A stretch of DNA of 64,000 bases from Dehalococcoidia bacterium (GTDB lineage Bacteria; Chloroflexota; Dehalococcoidia; Lucifugimonadales; UBA3495), in NCBI GenBank assembly GCA_022827095.1, contig JAJDTP010000005.1, positions 558,001 through 622,000 on the forward strand, read 5' to 3'. Of this stretch, positions 21,688 through 48,900 are shown piece after piece. The notes under the pieces are model-generated. The model had not been told where the DNA came from. It saw only the letters and a program-made list of their open reading frames with translations, and did not search any database. The translations under genes and the position numbers were made by a program. Each line of letters begins with the position of its first letter. The first letter of the stretch is position 1.

Positions 21688-22911
21688 ATGAAAGTGTCTT
21701 TCTTCCACCTCATGCCCTACCAGGACCTGCCGGATGATTTCGCCCAGCAGCACCACTCGGCTTGGGTCGATCTGCCCAACGAGAACTTCGACCCGGCCAA
21801 GGGCAACGAGTACTACGGCCAGTACATCGATCAGTTGCGTTACGCGGATGAGGTCGGGTTTGACGGCATCTGCGTCAACGAACACCACAACAATGCCTAC
21901 GGCATCATGCCCTCGCCCAACCTGATTGCTTCGGTGCTGGCGAATTCCACCAGCAACGGCGCCGTCATCGTCCTTGGGAACAGCCTGGCCCTCTACAACC
22001 CGCCCGTGCGCGTCGCGGAAGAGATGGCCATGCTCGACGTCATTTCCAATGGACGCTTGGTCGCCGGCTTCCCGGTAGGAACCGCCATGGACACCACGTT
22101 CTCCTACGGCCAGGTGCCCATTACCCTGCGGGACCGTCACACTGAGGCCCACGACGTGATCATGCAGGCCTGGACGCAGCACCAGCCCACCATCTTCAAC
22201 GGCAAGTACAACAAACTGCGCTACATCAGCATCTGGCCGCGGCCCATGCAGGAGCCCCACCCGCCGGTGTGGATCCCAGGTTCCGGCAGCCTGGAAACCT
22301 GGGACTGGGTCCTGGATCGGGACTACGTCTACTGCTACCTGTCCTACTACGGCTACCTGCGCGGCCACAACATCGTCAAGGGCTACTGGGAACGCTGCGC
22401 TGAACGCGGCGTGGATGACAATCCCCACCGTCTGGGCTTCTTGCAGTTGGTGTGCGTTTCCGAGACGGACGAGCAGGCGGAGAAGGACTACGAGCAGCAC
22501 GTGAAGTATTTCTACGAGAAGATGCTGCGCGTGTACCCGCCGTTCGCCGAATCGCCAGGCTACCGTTCCCTCGAATCCATCCGCAAGTCACTGCGCCCTC
22601 AGATGGGTGAAGAGGCGCAGCGCACTGCCCAGGAGAACAGCTGGAAGGATTACATCGAACAGGGCCACGTCATTGGCGGAAGCCCCGAAACCGTCCGCCG
22701 CAAGCTGACCGAAGCCTGCGAGTTGCTCCGCGTCGGGCACCTCATGGTCCTGCTCCAGATCGGCAGCATGCCCCCCGAGTTGGTCCGCAAGAATACCGAC
22801 CTATTCGCCAACGAGGTCATGCCCCACATCAAGGGTCTCTTCAACGAGTACGATGACCCATGGTGGCCGGAGCGTCTTAAATCAACCAGCGCCGAAGCGG
22901 TCGGTGATTAG
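21688..22911 (+). CDS. LLM-class flavin-dependent oxidoreductase
   Basis: A 407-residue luciferase-like monooxygenase (TIM barrel using FMNH2 or F420H2). The N-terminal strand MKVSFFHLMPYQDLP, VGFDGICVNEHHNNAYGIMPSPNLIAS and LDVISNGRLVAGFPVG are typical of bacterial luciferase-family alkanal or alkane monooxygenases. The NEHH segment is the usual His-containing active-site loop. Two to three bases separate it from the PaREP1-like gene, and the selenoprotein candidate follows, so all three are probably one operon. The flavin specificity and substrate are unknown. Confidence 0.9.
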   Translation: MKVSFFHLMPYQDLPDDFAQQHHSAWVDLPNENFDPAKGNEYYGQYIDQLRYADEVGFDGICVNEHHNNAYGIMPSPNLIASVLANSTSNGAVIVLGNSLALYNPPVRVAEEMAMLDVISNGRLVAGFPVGTAMDTTFSYGQVPITLRDRHTEAHDVIMQAWTQHQPTIFNGKYNKLRYISIWPRPMQEPHPPVWIPGSGSLETWDWVLDRDYVYCYLSYYGYLRGHNIVKGYWERCAERGVDDNPHRLGFLQLVCVSETDEQAEKDYEQHVKYFYEKMLRVYPPFAESPGYRSLESIRKSLRPQMGEEAQRTAQENSWKDYIEQGHVIGGSPETVRRKLTEACELLRVGHLMVLLQIGSMPPELVRKNTDLFANEVMPHIKGLFNEYDDPWWPERLKSTSAEAVGD

Positions 22912-22913
22912 CA

Positions 22914-23432
22914 ATGCCAACTACGGTGGCTTGGTCCCAACACGATGTCGCCGCTGCTGTGGCGCGAGCGCTGGCAAGGTCCAAAGACCCAGCTCAGCCC
23001 GGGGACACAGGAAGGTCCCCGGCGAAGTATGCGCAACTGAGCGATGACTTCCGGGCTAGCGCCTGGCGGCACCTGAAAGAAGACGGCGATCTGCCCCAGG
23101 CTTCCAGCAAGGCTTGGGGCATGGTCGCGGAGACGATCAAGGCTGTCAGCGCCAGACACGGAGGGATCATTCATGCCCACCGTTCCATCTGGCACGTGCT
23201 TCGTGAGCTGAGCCGGTTGGTGGGCGAAGCAGGCGACGAACCGACACAGGCGTGGATGAACAATGCTTTCAGCCGAGCCCGTTCATTGCATACCAACTTC
23301 TATGAAGACGAGGAAGCGCAACCGGAGGTCGAGGCTGGCTTAGCGTTGTGCGAAGAACTATCCGAACGCCTGTATGAAATGTTCTGGCCCGAACGCCCCA
23401 GCGGCACTACGGAGCCCGGTACCGAGGAATGA
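22914..23432 (+). CDS. PaREP1-like (HEPN-type) protein
   Basis: A 172-residue all-helical protein. The segment ASSKAWGMVAETIKAVSARH with IIHAHRSIWHVLREL matches the PaREP1 pattern, a family first noted in Pyrobaculum and related to HEPN nucleotide-binding or RNase folds. A biochemical role has not been set. The N-terminus (about 40 residues) is less conserved. It begins 2 bases after the LLM gene stop, and its stop overlaps a possible ATG (ATGA at 23429-23432) of the next gene, so translation is coupled to the selenoprotein candidate. Confidence 0.6.
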   Translation: MPTTVAWSQHDVAAAVARALARSKDPAQPGDTGRSPAKYAQLSDDFRASAWRHLKEDGDLPQASSKAWGMVAETIKAVSARHGGIIHAHRSIWHVLRELSRLVGEAGDEPTQAWMNNAFSRARSLHTNFYEDEEAQPEVEAGLALCEELSERLYEMFWPERPSGTTEPGTEE

Positions 23433-23434
23433 CG

Positions 23435-23926
23435 ATGACAGACAAGCTGCAACAGGGTGATCGCCTGCCCGAACTCACTCTCAATCTGACCGACGGAGGT
23501 ACCCTGACCCTGCCCGGCGAAATGTCGTCTCGGTACCTCGCCGTTCTGTTTTATCGCGGGGTTTGGTGACCCTACTGCTCGCGGCAGTTGGCCGCATGGC
23601 AGTCGGAGCAGGATTCCCTGGCCGAGATGGGGCTGTCCATCGTCGGCGCCAGCGTGGAACCCAAGGAAGTCGTGGAGGAAATGGCCACCAAGTCCGGCGT
23701 CACCTTCCCCATGGCATACGGCGTGACCCGTGAGCAGGCCGGCCTGCTCGGGTCGTGGTGGTCCGACGACCGCGGCGGTTACATTCAGCCCACCGAGTTC
23801 CTGCTGGGACGGGGTGGCACCGTCTTGGGTTCCATGTACGCCAGCGGACCGGTTGGCCGCGTCAGCCCGGACGAGGCCGTGCATTTCATAGAAGGCCGGG
23901 AGCGAGCCCGGTTGCGCAGCCAGTAG
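23435..23926 (+). CDS. peroxiredoxin-like selenoprotein, in-frame TGA at codon 45
   Basis: Read through one TGA (23567-23569), this frame encodes a 163-residue AhpC/TSA-type thioredoxin-fold protein. Before the TGA come GDRLPELTLNL and YLAVLFYRGVW; after it come PYCSRQLAAWQSEQ, VGASVEPKEVVEEM, FPMAYGV and the C-terminal PTEFLLGRGG. Relatives have Cys at the TGA (RGxWCPYCRxQL), so the motif is Sec-x-x-Cys (U45, C48). Frame and similarity are unbroken on both sides, and a SECIS-like hairpin follows. The ATG at 23435 has GAGGA six bases upstream; ATG 23429 is an alternative. It is the third gene of a probable operon with the LLM oxidoreductase and PaREP1-like protein. A sequencing error or pseudogene is the alternative. 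Gene callers would annotate only 23588-23926. Confidence 0.85.
23567..23602 (+). promoter_or_regulatory. UGA (Sec) codon and bacterial SECIS-like hairpin
   Basis: Downstream of the TGA, CTGC (23575-23578) pairs with GCAG (23599-23602) and GCGGC (23581-23585) with GCCGC (23591-23595). A 2x3 internal loop lies between them and the 5-base apical loop is AGTTG. The apical loop lies 17-21 bases after the UGA and has G in its second position, fitting the published bacterial SECIS pattern (short stem, small loop, G in the first two loop positions). Confidence 0.8.
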
Positions 23927-23953: not shown

Positions 23954-26764
23954 TTACTCTGGCGGCTCCACCCGAACCGCGCATACCTTGTACTCCGGTA
24001 TTCGCGAATCGGGATCGTACACGGCGTTGGTCAGGAAGTTTGCCGCTGATTCGTTCAACCTCACGAACGGAATGAATATCTCGCCGACGCGCATACGGTA
24101 GGTGAACCGGGTTACTCCGGTAAGTTGGCCGCGGCGGGAACGCACGCGAACGGGCTCGCCATCGCGCAAGCCGAACCGCTCACCGTCGGCGGGATTGATG
24201 GACACTTCGAGGTCTGACATACGCGCCAGGAGACTGCTGGCTCGCCGTGTGATAGTGCCGCCGTGCCAATGGTAAAGCACTCGCCCCGTGTTCAACACCA
24301 GGGGAAACTGTTCCGACGGCGTCTCCTCGGCGGTGGGTCCCTGTTCGTAGGCTACGAACTTGGCGCGGTCACCCCGGGGAAAACCGTCGGCATAGAGGTA
24401 CGTGGTTCCCGGGTGGTCTGGCGCCGGGCACGGCCATTGGATCCCGCCCTCGGCGTCGAGCCGCGCGTAGGAGATGCCGGACAGCAGCGGCGTCAGGCTG
24501 GTCATCTCGGCGAAGATTTCCGACGGATGGTTGTACGCGAATTGTTCCTGCCACGGCAGGCCCAAGCCGTTGCACATCCGCCTGGCCAGTTCGCAGATGA
24601 TAATCCAGTCCGCCCGACTTTGGCCCACCGGCTCGACGGCCTGGCGCACCCGTTGCACCCGTCGTTCGCTGTTGGTGAAGGTTCCGTCCTTTTCCGCGAA
24701 GCTCGCCGCCGGGAGCACCACGTCCGCAATACGGGCCGTCTCGTGCAAGAAGATGTCCTGCACCACCAGGAAGTCCAGCTTGCGGAACAGTTCGTCGGCC
24801 CGATTCAGGTCGGGCTCGCTGAGCAGCGGGTTCTCGCCGGTGATGTACATCGCCCGCACGCCGCCCGGCTCCCCAATGGAGTCCACCATATCTGTGACCA
24901 CTCGGCCGGGCCGGTCGGGCAACGAGTGGTCGGCCTGCCAAGCTTGTCCGAACTTGGCGACTGACTCTGCGCTCAAGCCCTGGTAGCCCGGAAGCGAATC
25001 GGGTACGCAACCCGCGTCGCCGCATCCCTGGACGTTGTTCTGGCCCCGCAGCGGCGAGATGCCCGAGCCCCGGAATCCCATTTGTCCGGTTACCAGCGCC
25101 AGGTTCAGCACGGAATGGACGTTGGCCGTGCCGTTGGTGTGCTGCGTAAGCCCCATGCCCCAGATCAAACAGGCTCCGCCGCGTTCGGCTCCCGGGTCAC
25201 CGCAGCGAGGTATCGGAGGCTTTGCCACCATGCGTGCCCCCGTCCGTATGTCCTCCGCTGAGACTCCAGTGATCGCCGCGGCTCGGTCCGGGGTGTACTT
25301 GTCGATCATCCCTGCCCAATCGTCGTAGCCCTCGGTGCGCTGGGCCACGAACGCGTCGTCTGCCAACCCCTCCGTTACCACTACGTGAGCCATCGCATTC
25401 AGCAGCGCCACGTCGGTGCCTGGATACGGACGCAACCACAGGTCAGCGTAGTCGCACATGTCGATCCGGCGCGGGTTGATCACGATCAACTTGGCTCCCC
25501 GCTCAACAACAGCCCGCCGCATCCGCGACGCGGCCACCGGATGATTGGACGTGGGATCGCAGCCGATCATCACCAGGCACCCGGCGTTTTCATAGTCAGT
25601 GTACGAGTTGCTGGTGGCCCCACTCCCCAGCGTGGTGAGCATCGCCGCCACCGACGGCGCGTGGCAAAGCCGGGTGCAGTGGTCGATGTTGTTGCTGCCC
25701 ATGACCAGGCGGGCGAATTTCTGCTGCACATAGCCGTCTTCATTAGTCGCCTTGGCCGAGCACAATGTTCCGAAGGACTCACCTCGGTATTCGGCGAGGC
25801 GGGACGCAACCAGGTCAAGCGCTTCGTCCCAGCTCGCTTCACGAAAATTCCCGGTGGCCCGGTCGCCCTCGCGGATCAGCGGGGTCTTGATCCGGTCCCC
25901 GTGCTGCACGAAGGTGTAGCCGAAGCGGCCCTTGACGCACAGCATCCCGACGCTGGAAAGGTTATTCGGGTCGTCATGCGAAGCGATTATCTTTCCGGCT
26001 TCCGGTCCTTCGGTGGCGTTGCTGACCTCCAACTTGATCCCGCAGCCCACCCCGCAATACGGGCAGGTCGTGCTGACTTGGTGGCTGGGCGTCTGCGCAT
26101 CCGGGGCCGCTTTGACGCTGATCGCGCCGGTAGGGCATACGCTGAGGCATTGTCCGCAGGTGGTGCAGATGCTTTCGCCCAGCGGTTTGTCACCGGCGGT
26201 GGCGATACGCGCCGATCCGCCGGCGCCCAACACGTCTATTGCGCCGATGTACTGGTGGGCCGACTGGCAGGCGTTGACGCAACGGGCGCAGAGGATACAT
26301 GCGTCCATGGCCAGATTGAACACCGGGTTGGATTCATCCGTGGGCTGGCGTGGCCGCGAACCCCAGCGAGTTGTGGATATGCCGTGCAACCTGGCTGCGT
26401 CGGTCAGCAGCCCGTACGCATCCGCATCTGGCTCGACTGAGTGGTTCCCGTTGCCAACCATGCCCAAGGTGAGCTCGATAACGCCGGAACGAATGCGACG
26501 AGCGTCGGCGGTGTCAGTGCGGATCACCATGCCGTCGCTGGCCGGCGTGGAGCACGACGCGGGAAACCCGCGGATGCCGTCGATTTGCACCAGGCAGGTC
26601 CGGCACGCCCCGATGGCCGGCATGTCAGCGTCCTTACACAACTGGGACAGGGGCACGCCAGCGGCGTTAACGGCGTCCAGCGCGCTGGATCCTGGCGGGA
26701 CGCTGACCGCGATTCCATCCACCGTCACGCCGATCGTTGAACTTGCTACGACCATTGCTCCCAC
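23954..26764 (-). CDS. fdhA: formate dehydrogenase alpha subunit (Mo/W bis-MGD)
   Basis: A 936-residue cytosolic-type formate dehydrogenase catalytic chain. An N-terminal [2Fe-2S] domain (C43, C54, C57, C71) comes first. A ferredoxin-like region follows with CILCARCVNAC and CTTCGQCLSVCP, then the catalytic-domain cluster TTCPYCGVGC. The bis-MGD domain has the Mo ligand at C367 in HCTRLCHAPSVAA, encoded by TGC and so Cys, not selenocysteine. The C-terminus has LNTGRVLYHWHGGTITRR and the dinucleotide-binding fold. No diaphorase (FdhB/NuoF-like) gene is next to it, so its electron acceptor is unknown. The start is GTG 26764 or the ATG three codons later. No Tat signal is present. Confidence 0.93.
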   Translation of the reverse strand: MGAMVVASSTIGVTVDGIAVSVPPGSSALDAVNAAGVPLSQLCKDADMPAIGACRTCLVQIDGIRGFPASCSTPASDGMVIRTDTADARRIRSGVIELTLGMVGNGNHSVEPDADAYGLLTDAARLHGISTTRWGSRPRQPTDESNPVFNLAMDACILCARCVNACQSAHQYIGAIDVLGAGGSARIATAGDKPLGESICTTCGQCLSVCPTGAISVKAAPDAQTPSHQVSTTCPYCGVGCGIKLEVSNATEGPEAGKIIASHDDPNNLSSVGMLCVKGRFGYTFVQHGDRIKTPLIREGDRATGNFREASWDEALDLVASRLAEYRGESFGTLCSAKATNEDGYVQQKFARLVMGSNNIDHCTRLCHAPSVAAMLTTLGSGATSNSYTDYENAGCLVMIGCDPTSNHPVAASRMRRAVVERGAKLIVINPRRIDMCDYADLWLRPYPGTDVALLNAMAHVVVTEGLADDAFVAQRTEGYDDWAGMIDKYTPDRAAAITGVSAEDIRTGARMVAKPPIPRCGDPGAERGGACLIWGMGLTQHTNGTANVHSVLNLALVTGQMGFRGSGISPLRGQNNVQGCGDAGCVPDSLPGYQGLSAESVAKFGQAWQADHSLPDRPGRVVTDMVDSIGEPGGVRAMYITGENPLLSEPDLNRADELFRKLDFLVVQDIFLHETARIADVVLPAASFAEKDGTFTNSERRVQRVRQAVEPVGQSRADWIIICELARRMCNGLGLPWQEQFAYNHPSEIFAEMTSLTPLLSGISYARLDAEGGIQWPCPAPDHPGTTYLYADGFPRGDRAKFVAYEQGPTAEETPSEQFPLVLNTGRVLYHWHGGTITRRASSLLARMSDLEVSINPADGERFGLRDGEPVRVRSRRGQLTGVTRFTYRMRVGEIFIPFVRLNESAANFLTNAVYDPDSRIPEYKVCAVRVEPPE

Positions 26765-46631: not shown

Positions 46632-47934
<1,303 letters not shown>

Positions 47935-47937
47935 CCG

Positions 47938-48900
47938 GTGACCGTGTCGACCACCGGACTGGTGCTCGCTCTCGCCGGCGGCGTCGGCGGGGCCAAGTTG
48001 GCGCTGGGTTTGTCCCGGATATTGCCTCCGGAGCGATTGGCCATCGTCGTCAATACCGGCGACGACGAGCGGTTTCACGGCCTGCACGTTTCGCCCGACC
48101 TGGACACGATGACCTACACCCTGTCCGGCCTGTATAATCCCGAAACCGGGTGGGGCATCGACGGAGACTCGTTTGAAACGCTGCTGATGCTGAACCGCCT
48201 CGGCGCCGACACCTGGTTCAATCTGGGCAGCCGCGATTTTGCCATGCACATCCGACGCACCGAGTTGCTCGCCCAGGGCTCGTCCTTGAGCCAGATTACC
48301 TCTCAATTGACGGCATCCCTGGGCATAGAGCACGCCATCGTGCCCATGAGCGACCAACCCGTGCGGACGGTACTGGAAACGGATGAAGGTACCCTGTCAA
48401 TGCAGGAATATTTCGTCAAGCGGCGCGCCGAACCGGTGGTGCAGTCGATAAGTTACGTTGGAGCGGCCGACGCCCAACCGTCTCCCGGATTCGCATCGGC
48501 CCTTGCCGCTGCTTCGGCCATCATCATCTGTCCGTCCAACCCGTTCCTCAGCGTGGCGCCTATCCTGGCGATTCCCGGCGTACGTGACGCCATTGCGCAG
48601 CACCGCGCGCCGCGGATTGCGGTAAGCCCCATCGTTGGCGGGATGGCGGTACGCGGCCCCGCCGGCAAGATCATGCAGGAATTGGGCGCCGATGTGTCCG
48701 CGGTCGGGGTGGCGCAGGAATACCGAGAAATCTGTAACGTGCTGGTGCTCGATTCCCAGGACGAAGAATTGGCCGACGCTGTCGGCGCTGAGGGAGTCGC
48801 CGCCGCCGTGATGCCCACCATCATGCAGACCGACGAAGATAAGGTTCAGCTTGCTGAAATGGTGCTCGCGCTGGCCGCTGACCTGGAGGACCGCAAATGA
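47938..48900 (+). CDS. cofD: CofD, 2-phospho-L-lactate transferase family
   Basis: CofD transfers a phospholactate-type (or phosphoenolpyruvate-derived) moiety from its GDP-activated form to F0, giving F420-0. The 320-residue chain starts with LALAGGVGGAKLALGLSRIL and has NTGDDERFHGLHVSPDLDTMTYTLSG and IICPSNPFLSVAPILAIPG. The GTG start follows the cofH stop by 3 bases. Its stop overlaps the cofC start (ATGATGA), so translation is coupled. cofE, needed to add glutamates, is not in the window. Confidence 0.93.
   Translation: MTVSTTGLVLALAGGVGGAKLALGLSRILPPERLAIVVNTGDDERFHGLHVSPDLDTMTYTLSGLYNPETGWGIDGDSFETLLMLNRLGADTWFNLGSRDFAMHIRRTELLAQGSSLSQITSQLTASLGIEHAIVPMSDQPVRTVLETDEGTLSMQEYFVKRRAEPVVQSISYVGAADAQPSPGFASALAAASAIIICPSNPFLSVAPILAIPGVRDAIAQHRAPRIAVSPIVGGMAVRGPAGKIMQELGADVSAVGVAQEYREICNVLVLDSQDEELADAVGAEGVAAAVMPTIMQTDEDKVQLAEMVLALAADLEDRK

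Follow-up and report, generated by a model that had tools for sequence, protein, structure and literature searches.

A 2005 study of the Sargasso Sea described Prx-like selenoproteins with a UxxC active site, as a "Prx-like thiol:disulfide oxidoreductase" (PMC1088965). They appeared again in the GOS data in 2008 as "Prx-like 1," assigned to pfam00578 (PMC2398784), and the Prx-like UxxC family is listed in a 2026 review (PMC13188914). Neither PMC2398784 nor PMC13188914 names a Chloroflexota or SAR202 host for these proteins. The terms "selenoprotein" and "SAR202" never co-occur in the literature that we searched, which also held no specific description of selenoproteins from SAR202/Chloroflexi or from sponge-associated Chloroflexota; coverage was incomplete and this is weak evidence of novelty.

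Here, we analyze a Prx-like gene from a Dehalococcoidia genome. It lies within the window, by which we mean the whole 64-kb stretch of DNA that was analyzed, and its features are collected in Table 1. Judging from comparative sequence evidence, it is almost certainly a functional selenoprotein gene, whose UGA codon would be read as selenocysteine (Sec45), a rare 21st amino acid, with the help of SelB and an AGUUG SECIS element. The sequences support the recoding, the SECIS element, the machinery, and the orthology well. The type of enzyme is not new, because UxxC Prx-like selenoproteins have been in print since 2005. The preliminary description of this DNA held that selenoproteins of the family are known in some bacteria but that this gene and its operon appear unreported. 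The general family is published, and the lineage, the evolution of the SECIS element, and the operon appear to be undescribed in the papers that we searched.

Table 1. Features of the locus and other UGA-containing genes of the same genome (G000).
Feature	Position	Strand	Details
Luciferase-like (LLM) flavin monooxygenase-family protein (PF00296)	21688..22911	+	first gene of putative operon
PaREP1-like protein (PF05942)	22914..23432	+	stop overlaps the ATG at 23429 (ATGA)
Probable Sec-containing Prx-like (AhpC/TSA-fold) gene	23435..23926	+	163 aa with U45; from translation, Pfam, homologues, and AlphaFold model
Probable UGA selenocysteine codon, U of W-U-P-Y-C	23567..23569	+	TGA in 48 distinct homologues, with mixed terminal stops
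Putative bacterial SECIS hairpin	23574..23603	+	upper stem 23581-23585/23591-23595; loop AGUUG 23586-23590; lower stem 23574-23578/23599-23603
Further UGA genes of G000	L148, L152, L155, L156, L158, L159		TxxU peroxiredoxin, WUPHC, TYCUVNC, two FATWUP[VE]C, deiodinase-like YTUPPF

The reading frame and its annotation

If the TGA is translated as U, then the gene yields a protein of 163 amino acids that includes ...YRGVWUPYCSRQ.... The frame is open both 5' and 3' of the TGA and continues across it, so the earlier statement that there is no frameshift was correct. A Pfam search of the 163-residue protein gave a match to AhpC-TSA (PF00578, E = 2.7e-18). As this match runs from residue 8 to residue 130, the domain spans the UGA, which bears out the proposal that the two open segments encode halves of one AhpC/TSA-type protein. 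(A search of NCBIfam with the protein found no equivalog above its cut-off.) For each TGA in the window, on either strand, we also computed the coding signal from codon usage over 30 codons on each side. The TGA at 23567 had the top score for coding on both sides, and the remaining candidates resemble gene junctions, where the end of a gene is followed by the next gene, or noncoding frames.

The start of the gene is at either 23429 or 23435, because the ATG at 23429 is also in frame. Calling open reading frames with table 11 gives only 23588-23926, beginning at a TTG that lies within the SECIS loop. Because the caller starts at this TTG, about 51 residues at the N terminus would be lost in standard gene calls, much as had been predicted for automated annotation (the first 50 residues). 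Standard gene calls would cut the Prx-like gene at its active site across the lineage, which is a systematic annotation problem.

Conservation of the internal UGA

Among 60 relatives that we searched, we found 27 orthologues (including the gene in the window), with 37-93% identity, and all of them have an internal TGA at the same site. A class-wide search of 393 genomes brought in more divergent forms. The 48 distinct Sec forms used in the tree, which are 35-93% identical and come from Dehalococcoidia/SAR202 Chloroflexota, all have TGA at this codon, and the UGA is common to many independently assembled genomes. The possibility that the TGA is an isolated mutation is ruled out by these 48 sequences. 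Terminal stops in 26 close genes are 11 TAG, 9 TAA, and 6 TGA. As the internal codon is always TGA while the terminal stops are mixed, the internal codon is not an ordinary stop.

A separate observation concerns G030, in which a second Prx-like copy (G030:C128:10167-10576) is broken into two pieces that together contain two TGA and one TAG. It is apparently a pseudogene.

The SECIS hairpin

In the published model of bacterial SECIS elements (PMC13188914, Figure 2), the loop has 3-9 nt with a G in its first two positions, the upper stem has 4-16 bp, the loop lies 16-37 nt from the UGA, and the minimum free energy is at most −7.5. For the stretch 23570-23609 we obtained a fold of −20.7 kcal/mol (z = −2.7), which was matched by 1 of 200 shuffles. 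Its AGUUG apical loop lies just where it had been placed by the preliminary description, at 17-21 nt after the UGA, which corresponds to a spacing of 16 nt from UGA to loop. With a 5-nt loop that has G at position 2 and then U, and a 5-bp stem, the hairpin fits the model on each of these counts. Two stems had been proposed. The upper stem is paired in 97.9% of cells across 29 sequences, but the lower stem is paired in only 61% and does not hold up outside the genus of the window and its close relatives; these counts are phylogenetically non-independent, though synonymous sites are saturated.

Synonymous divergence among the 29 distinct sequences was close to the saturated expectation upstream of the UGA (0.59 observed versus 0.60 expected) and further downstream (0.52 versus 0.57). 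At codons U+5 to U+8 (CGG CAG TTR GCC), which form the top of the hairpin, it was 0.13 versus an expected 0.61. In particular, the leucine at U+7 is encoded by TTA or TTG in 29/29 sequences, and TTR makes up 19% of the leucine codons in these genes. The upper stem also covaries: a double change from G-C to U-A is found in 7 of the 29 sequences, and distant Sec forms have compensated stems (GCGUC-AGUUA-GACGC, UCGAC-AGUUA-GUCGA, and CCGGC-AGUUA-GCCGG). Judged from these substitution patterns, the SECIS loop and the upper stem are under selection at the RNA level.

The AGUUR loop is kept in 44 of the 48 distinct Sec forms, L047 and L146 among them. Sec forms from genus g54 (L124, L127, L129, and L130), which have the motif WUSYC, are without it. 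They contain an alternative hairpin, AGCU-(A)GGN-AGCU, that is shifted by 4 nt and has its loop 20 nt after the UGA. The recoding signal seems to have switched register within one gene family.

The host genome and its selenocysteine machinery

The genome that holds the window is a metagenome-assembled genome (MAG) of 3.79 Mb in 35 contigs and is 97.65% complete. Among named relatives, those closest to the gene (93% identity) are from Chloroflexota MAGs such as RHO3_bin_54, and relatives from SAR202-cluster MAGs are more distant. Several of the relatives' MAGs have isolate names from which we take them to be sponge-derived.

All of the machinery for selenocysteine that was looked for is present: SelA (541 bits versus a cut-off of 268, on the window's own contig), SelB (on contig C26, 355 bits versus 242), tRNA-Sec with the anticodon UCA (66.4 bits versus 47), and SelD (376 bits versus 125). 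The selD gene is a UGA gene in its own right, with the codon in frame at the classical site (HCAGUAAK). The same assembly has a second, partial SelB-like match (L002, G000:C14:1630-2139; 200 bits, with one TAG), which may be a piece of a paralogue or a contaminant.

The genome has six more AhpC/TSA-like or Trx-like genes whose only in-frame TGA lies at the redox site (Table 1); one of them, L148, is a TxxU member of PF00578. Counting SelD and the gene in the window, there are at least 8 candidate selenoproteins, and this is a lower bound, as the selenoproteome was sampled by family searches. The window also contains a formate dehydrogenase alpha-like gene that adjoins the Prx-like gene (23954-26764, minus strand) and has Cys (TRLCHAP) at the Sec-type site. 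Formate dehydrogenase alpha has Sec at that site in many Sec users.

Homologues without selenocysteine

At the position of the TGA, which had been equated with the family's active-site Cys, some homologues have a Cys codon: L123 (TGT), L128 (TGC), and L138 (TGT), along with the more distant L142 and L144. The AGUUR loop was not found in these five Cys homologues, nor in a Tyr homologue (L143) or a Ser homologue (L145). The Cys homologues are without a SECIS element, as would be expected if the exchange of Sec and Cys is real.

The Ser homologue (L145, G313:C43:48453-48929) is a tandem duplicate that lies beside a Sec copy (47916-48395). It has TCA at the site of the TGA, and its loop reads AAUUA instead of AGUUA. 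It probably arose by loss of Sec after duplication. The Tyr homologue (G148:C351) has TAC at the Sec/Cys site, and neither selB nor selA was detected in its genome, G148.

More broadly, selB is present in 43 of 44 genomes with a Sec form versus 2 of 6 with only non-Sec forms (P = 3e-4, Fisher's exact test). (The exception is G199, a Sec-form genome in which selB was not detected. As G199 does have selA and tRNA-Sec, its selB probably falls in an assembly gap.) The tree requires that Sec was gained or lost three times among the sequences sampled; its root is uncertain, and one gain followed by later losses would be compatible with it. The family offers a clean natural experiment, in which one gene exists with Sec, Cys, Ser, and possibly Tyr at the same site and the SECIS element occurs only with Sec.

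Fold and active site

The AlphaFold model of the protein (pLDDT 89.4, pTM 0.85) has a peroxiredoxin fold. When we searched for similar folds with the model, the best match was Bcp4 of Sulfolobus (Z = 21.2 over 155 residues, 2.2 Å, 16% identity), and the closest folds are the Bcp/PrxQ, AhpE, and AhpC peroxiredoxins (Z of 19-21). The catalytic residues tell a different story. We aligned the protein with peroxiredoxins that the genome encodes, of both the TxxC and the TxxU type. Sec45 lines up with their conserved Thr, and Cys48 with their peroxidatic Cys/Sec. The Pro of the PxxxTxxC motif is replaced by Arg, and, where the Arg region of peroxiredoxins would be, there is an invariant QP at the cis-Pro position of Trx/TlpA. 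That is, instead of PxxxTxxC/U plus a conserved Arg, the protein has Arg for Pro, Sec for Thr, and Pro at the Arg site.

As Sec is at the Thr position of peroxiredoxins and Cys48 is at the peroxidatic Cys, the protein is probably not a peroxiredoxin in the catalytic sense. The label "peroxiredoxin-like" is right about the fold, which is of the Bcp class, but not about the active-site motif, which is UxxC and not TxxC. The combination of PF00578 and UxxC that defines Prx-like UxxC selenoproteins is present, and the subfamily is further marked by UPYC and by invariant YRGxW and QPxE. The UxxC motif and the Trx-type Pro point to an oxidoreductase of the thiol:disulfide type.

Operon context

The LLM gene is upstream in 12 of the 13 loci that we read from the genus. 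In three of these loci PaREP1 was not detected, and the Prx-like gene follows the LLM gene directly. The two genes are also neighbors in G032, which belongs to another genus. This conserved adjacency suggests a possible link between the LLM protein and the selenoprotein.

Alternative explanations

The simplest alternative is that the TGA is an ordinary stop that splits a Cys gene into two non-functional halves, by pseudogenization or a sequencing error. The frame does terminate there under table 11, and an open reading frame of 112 amino acids starts from a TTG in the 3' part. This reading is nevertheless very improbable: the codon is TGA in all 48 distinct Sec forms and never another stop even though terminal stops are mixed, the protein is conserved on both sides of it, and the four hairpin codons have extra synonymous constraint. 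We reject a reading as two independent genes on the same comparative evidence (48 TGA forms and conservation on both sides). It is harder still to credit that the UGA encodes another amino acid, such as Trp, by a lineage-specific change in the code or by leaky readthrough and without Sec. The frame would be open whatever residue is inserted, but the 64 kb contain only one convincing internal UGA, and TGA serves also as a terminal stop within this very gene family. Also, the genome has a complete selABCD, a SECIS-type element is under selection, and homologues exchange the UGA for TGC, TGT, or TCA, not for TGG.

A different kind of alternative accepts the recoding but not the chemistry: Sec could be the peroxidatic residue of a true selenoperoxidase. 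Selenols readily reduce peroxides, which is established chemistry, the nearest folds are peroxiredoxins (Bcp/PrxQ, AhpE, and AhpC, with Z of 19-21), and the Pfam assignment is AhpC-TSA. It seems unlikely, if far from absurd, because it is Cys48 and not Sec45 that aligns to the peroxidatic Cys/Sec (Sec45 aligns to the conserved Thr), because the Pro of PxxxTxxC is Arg here, and because the Arg region is taken up by the invariant QP, which coincides with the cis-Pro site of Trx. A selenol-thiol UxxC oxidoreductase, whose chemistry we infer from sequence, is the best-supported reading.

Proposed mechanism and wider significance

We propose that SelB in complex with Sec-tRNA(UCA) recognizes the stem-loop that carries AGUUG, 16 nt beyond the UGA, and inserts selenocysteine at position 45. 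This would place a UxxC motif where the first long helix of a thioredoxin fold begins. Sec45 is most likely the attacking selenolate, and Cys48 would be the resolving thiol. The enzyme would then act as a thiol:disulfide-type oxidoreductase and count among the "Prx-like UxxC" proteins; we infer its redox chemistry and its electron donor. It is probably co-translated with the LLM-family flavin oxidoreductase, and the two may be functionally linked.

A selenoprotein type that was known mainly from unassigned ocean reads is now tied to one defined lineage of sponge-associated and deep-sea bacteria, which is abundant but has hardly been cultured (cultivation of SAR202 is described in PMC10444878). 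Tentatively, and we think it unlikely as a whole, the marine and sponge-associated Chloroflexota (SAR202/Dehalococcoidia) could be rich in selenoproteins that have been overlooked and could supply many of the Prx-like UxxC selenoproteins found in ocean metagenomes, and the subfamily encoded with LLM could be a dedicated selenol-based partner (a reductant or a detoxifier) of LLM oxygenase chemistry.

Comparison with known systems

The protein has a thioredoxin-type motif in common with TlpA/ResA-like proteins (3c71), namely W-C/U-P-x-C plus a Pro at the Trx cis-Pro position. However, it has no extra N-terminal stretch that might serve as a signal peptide, and the fold search puts peroxiredoxins above the TlpA/ResA-like proteins. 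It shares its overall fold with Bcp/PrxQ and AhpE/AhpC (e.g., 3hjp and 5epf; Z of about 20-21 over ~155 residues), but the identity is ~16% and the catalytic set of PxxxTxxC and Arg is not kept. The Sec-peroxiredoxins (TxxU, PF00578), which have a member in the same genome (L148), are alike in fold as well. In contrast to these, the Sec in our protein lies three residues earlier, where it replaces the Thr, and there is no PxxxTxxC.

The closest described system is the Prx-like UxxC family (reference WP_010940744.1), where the likeness is by published definition and not by sequence comparison. Both have PF00578, UxxC, a SECIS element directly downstream, and a marine origin. What sets this locus apart is UPYC, the invariant YRGxW and QPxE, and the operon with LLM and PaREP1.
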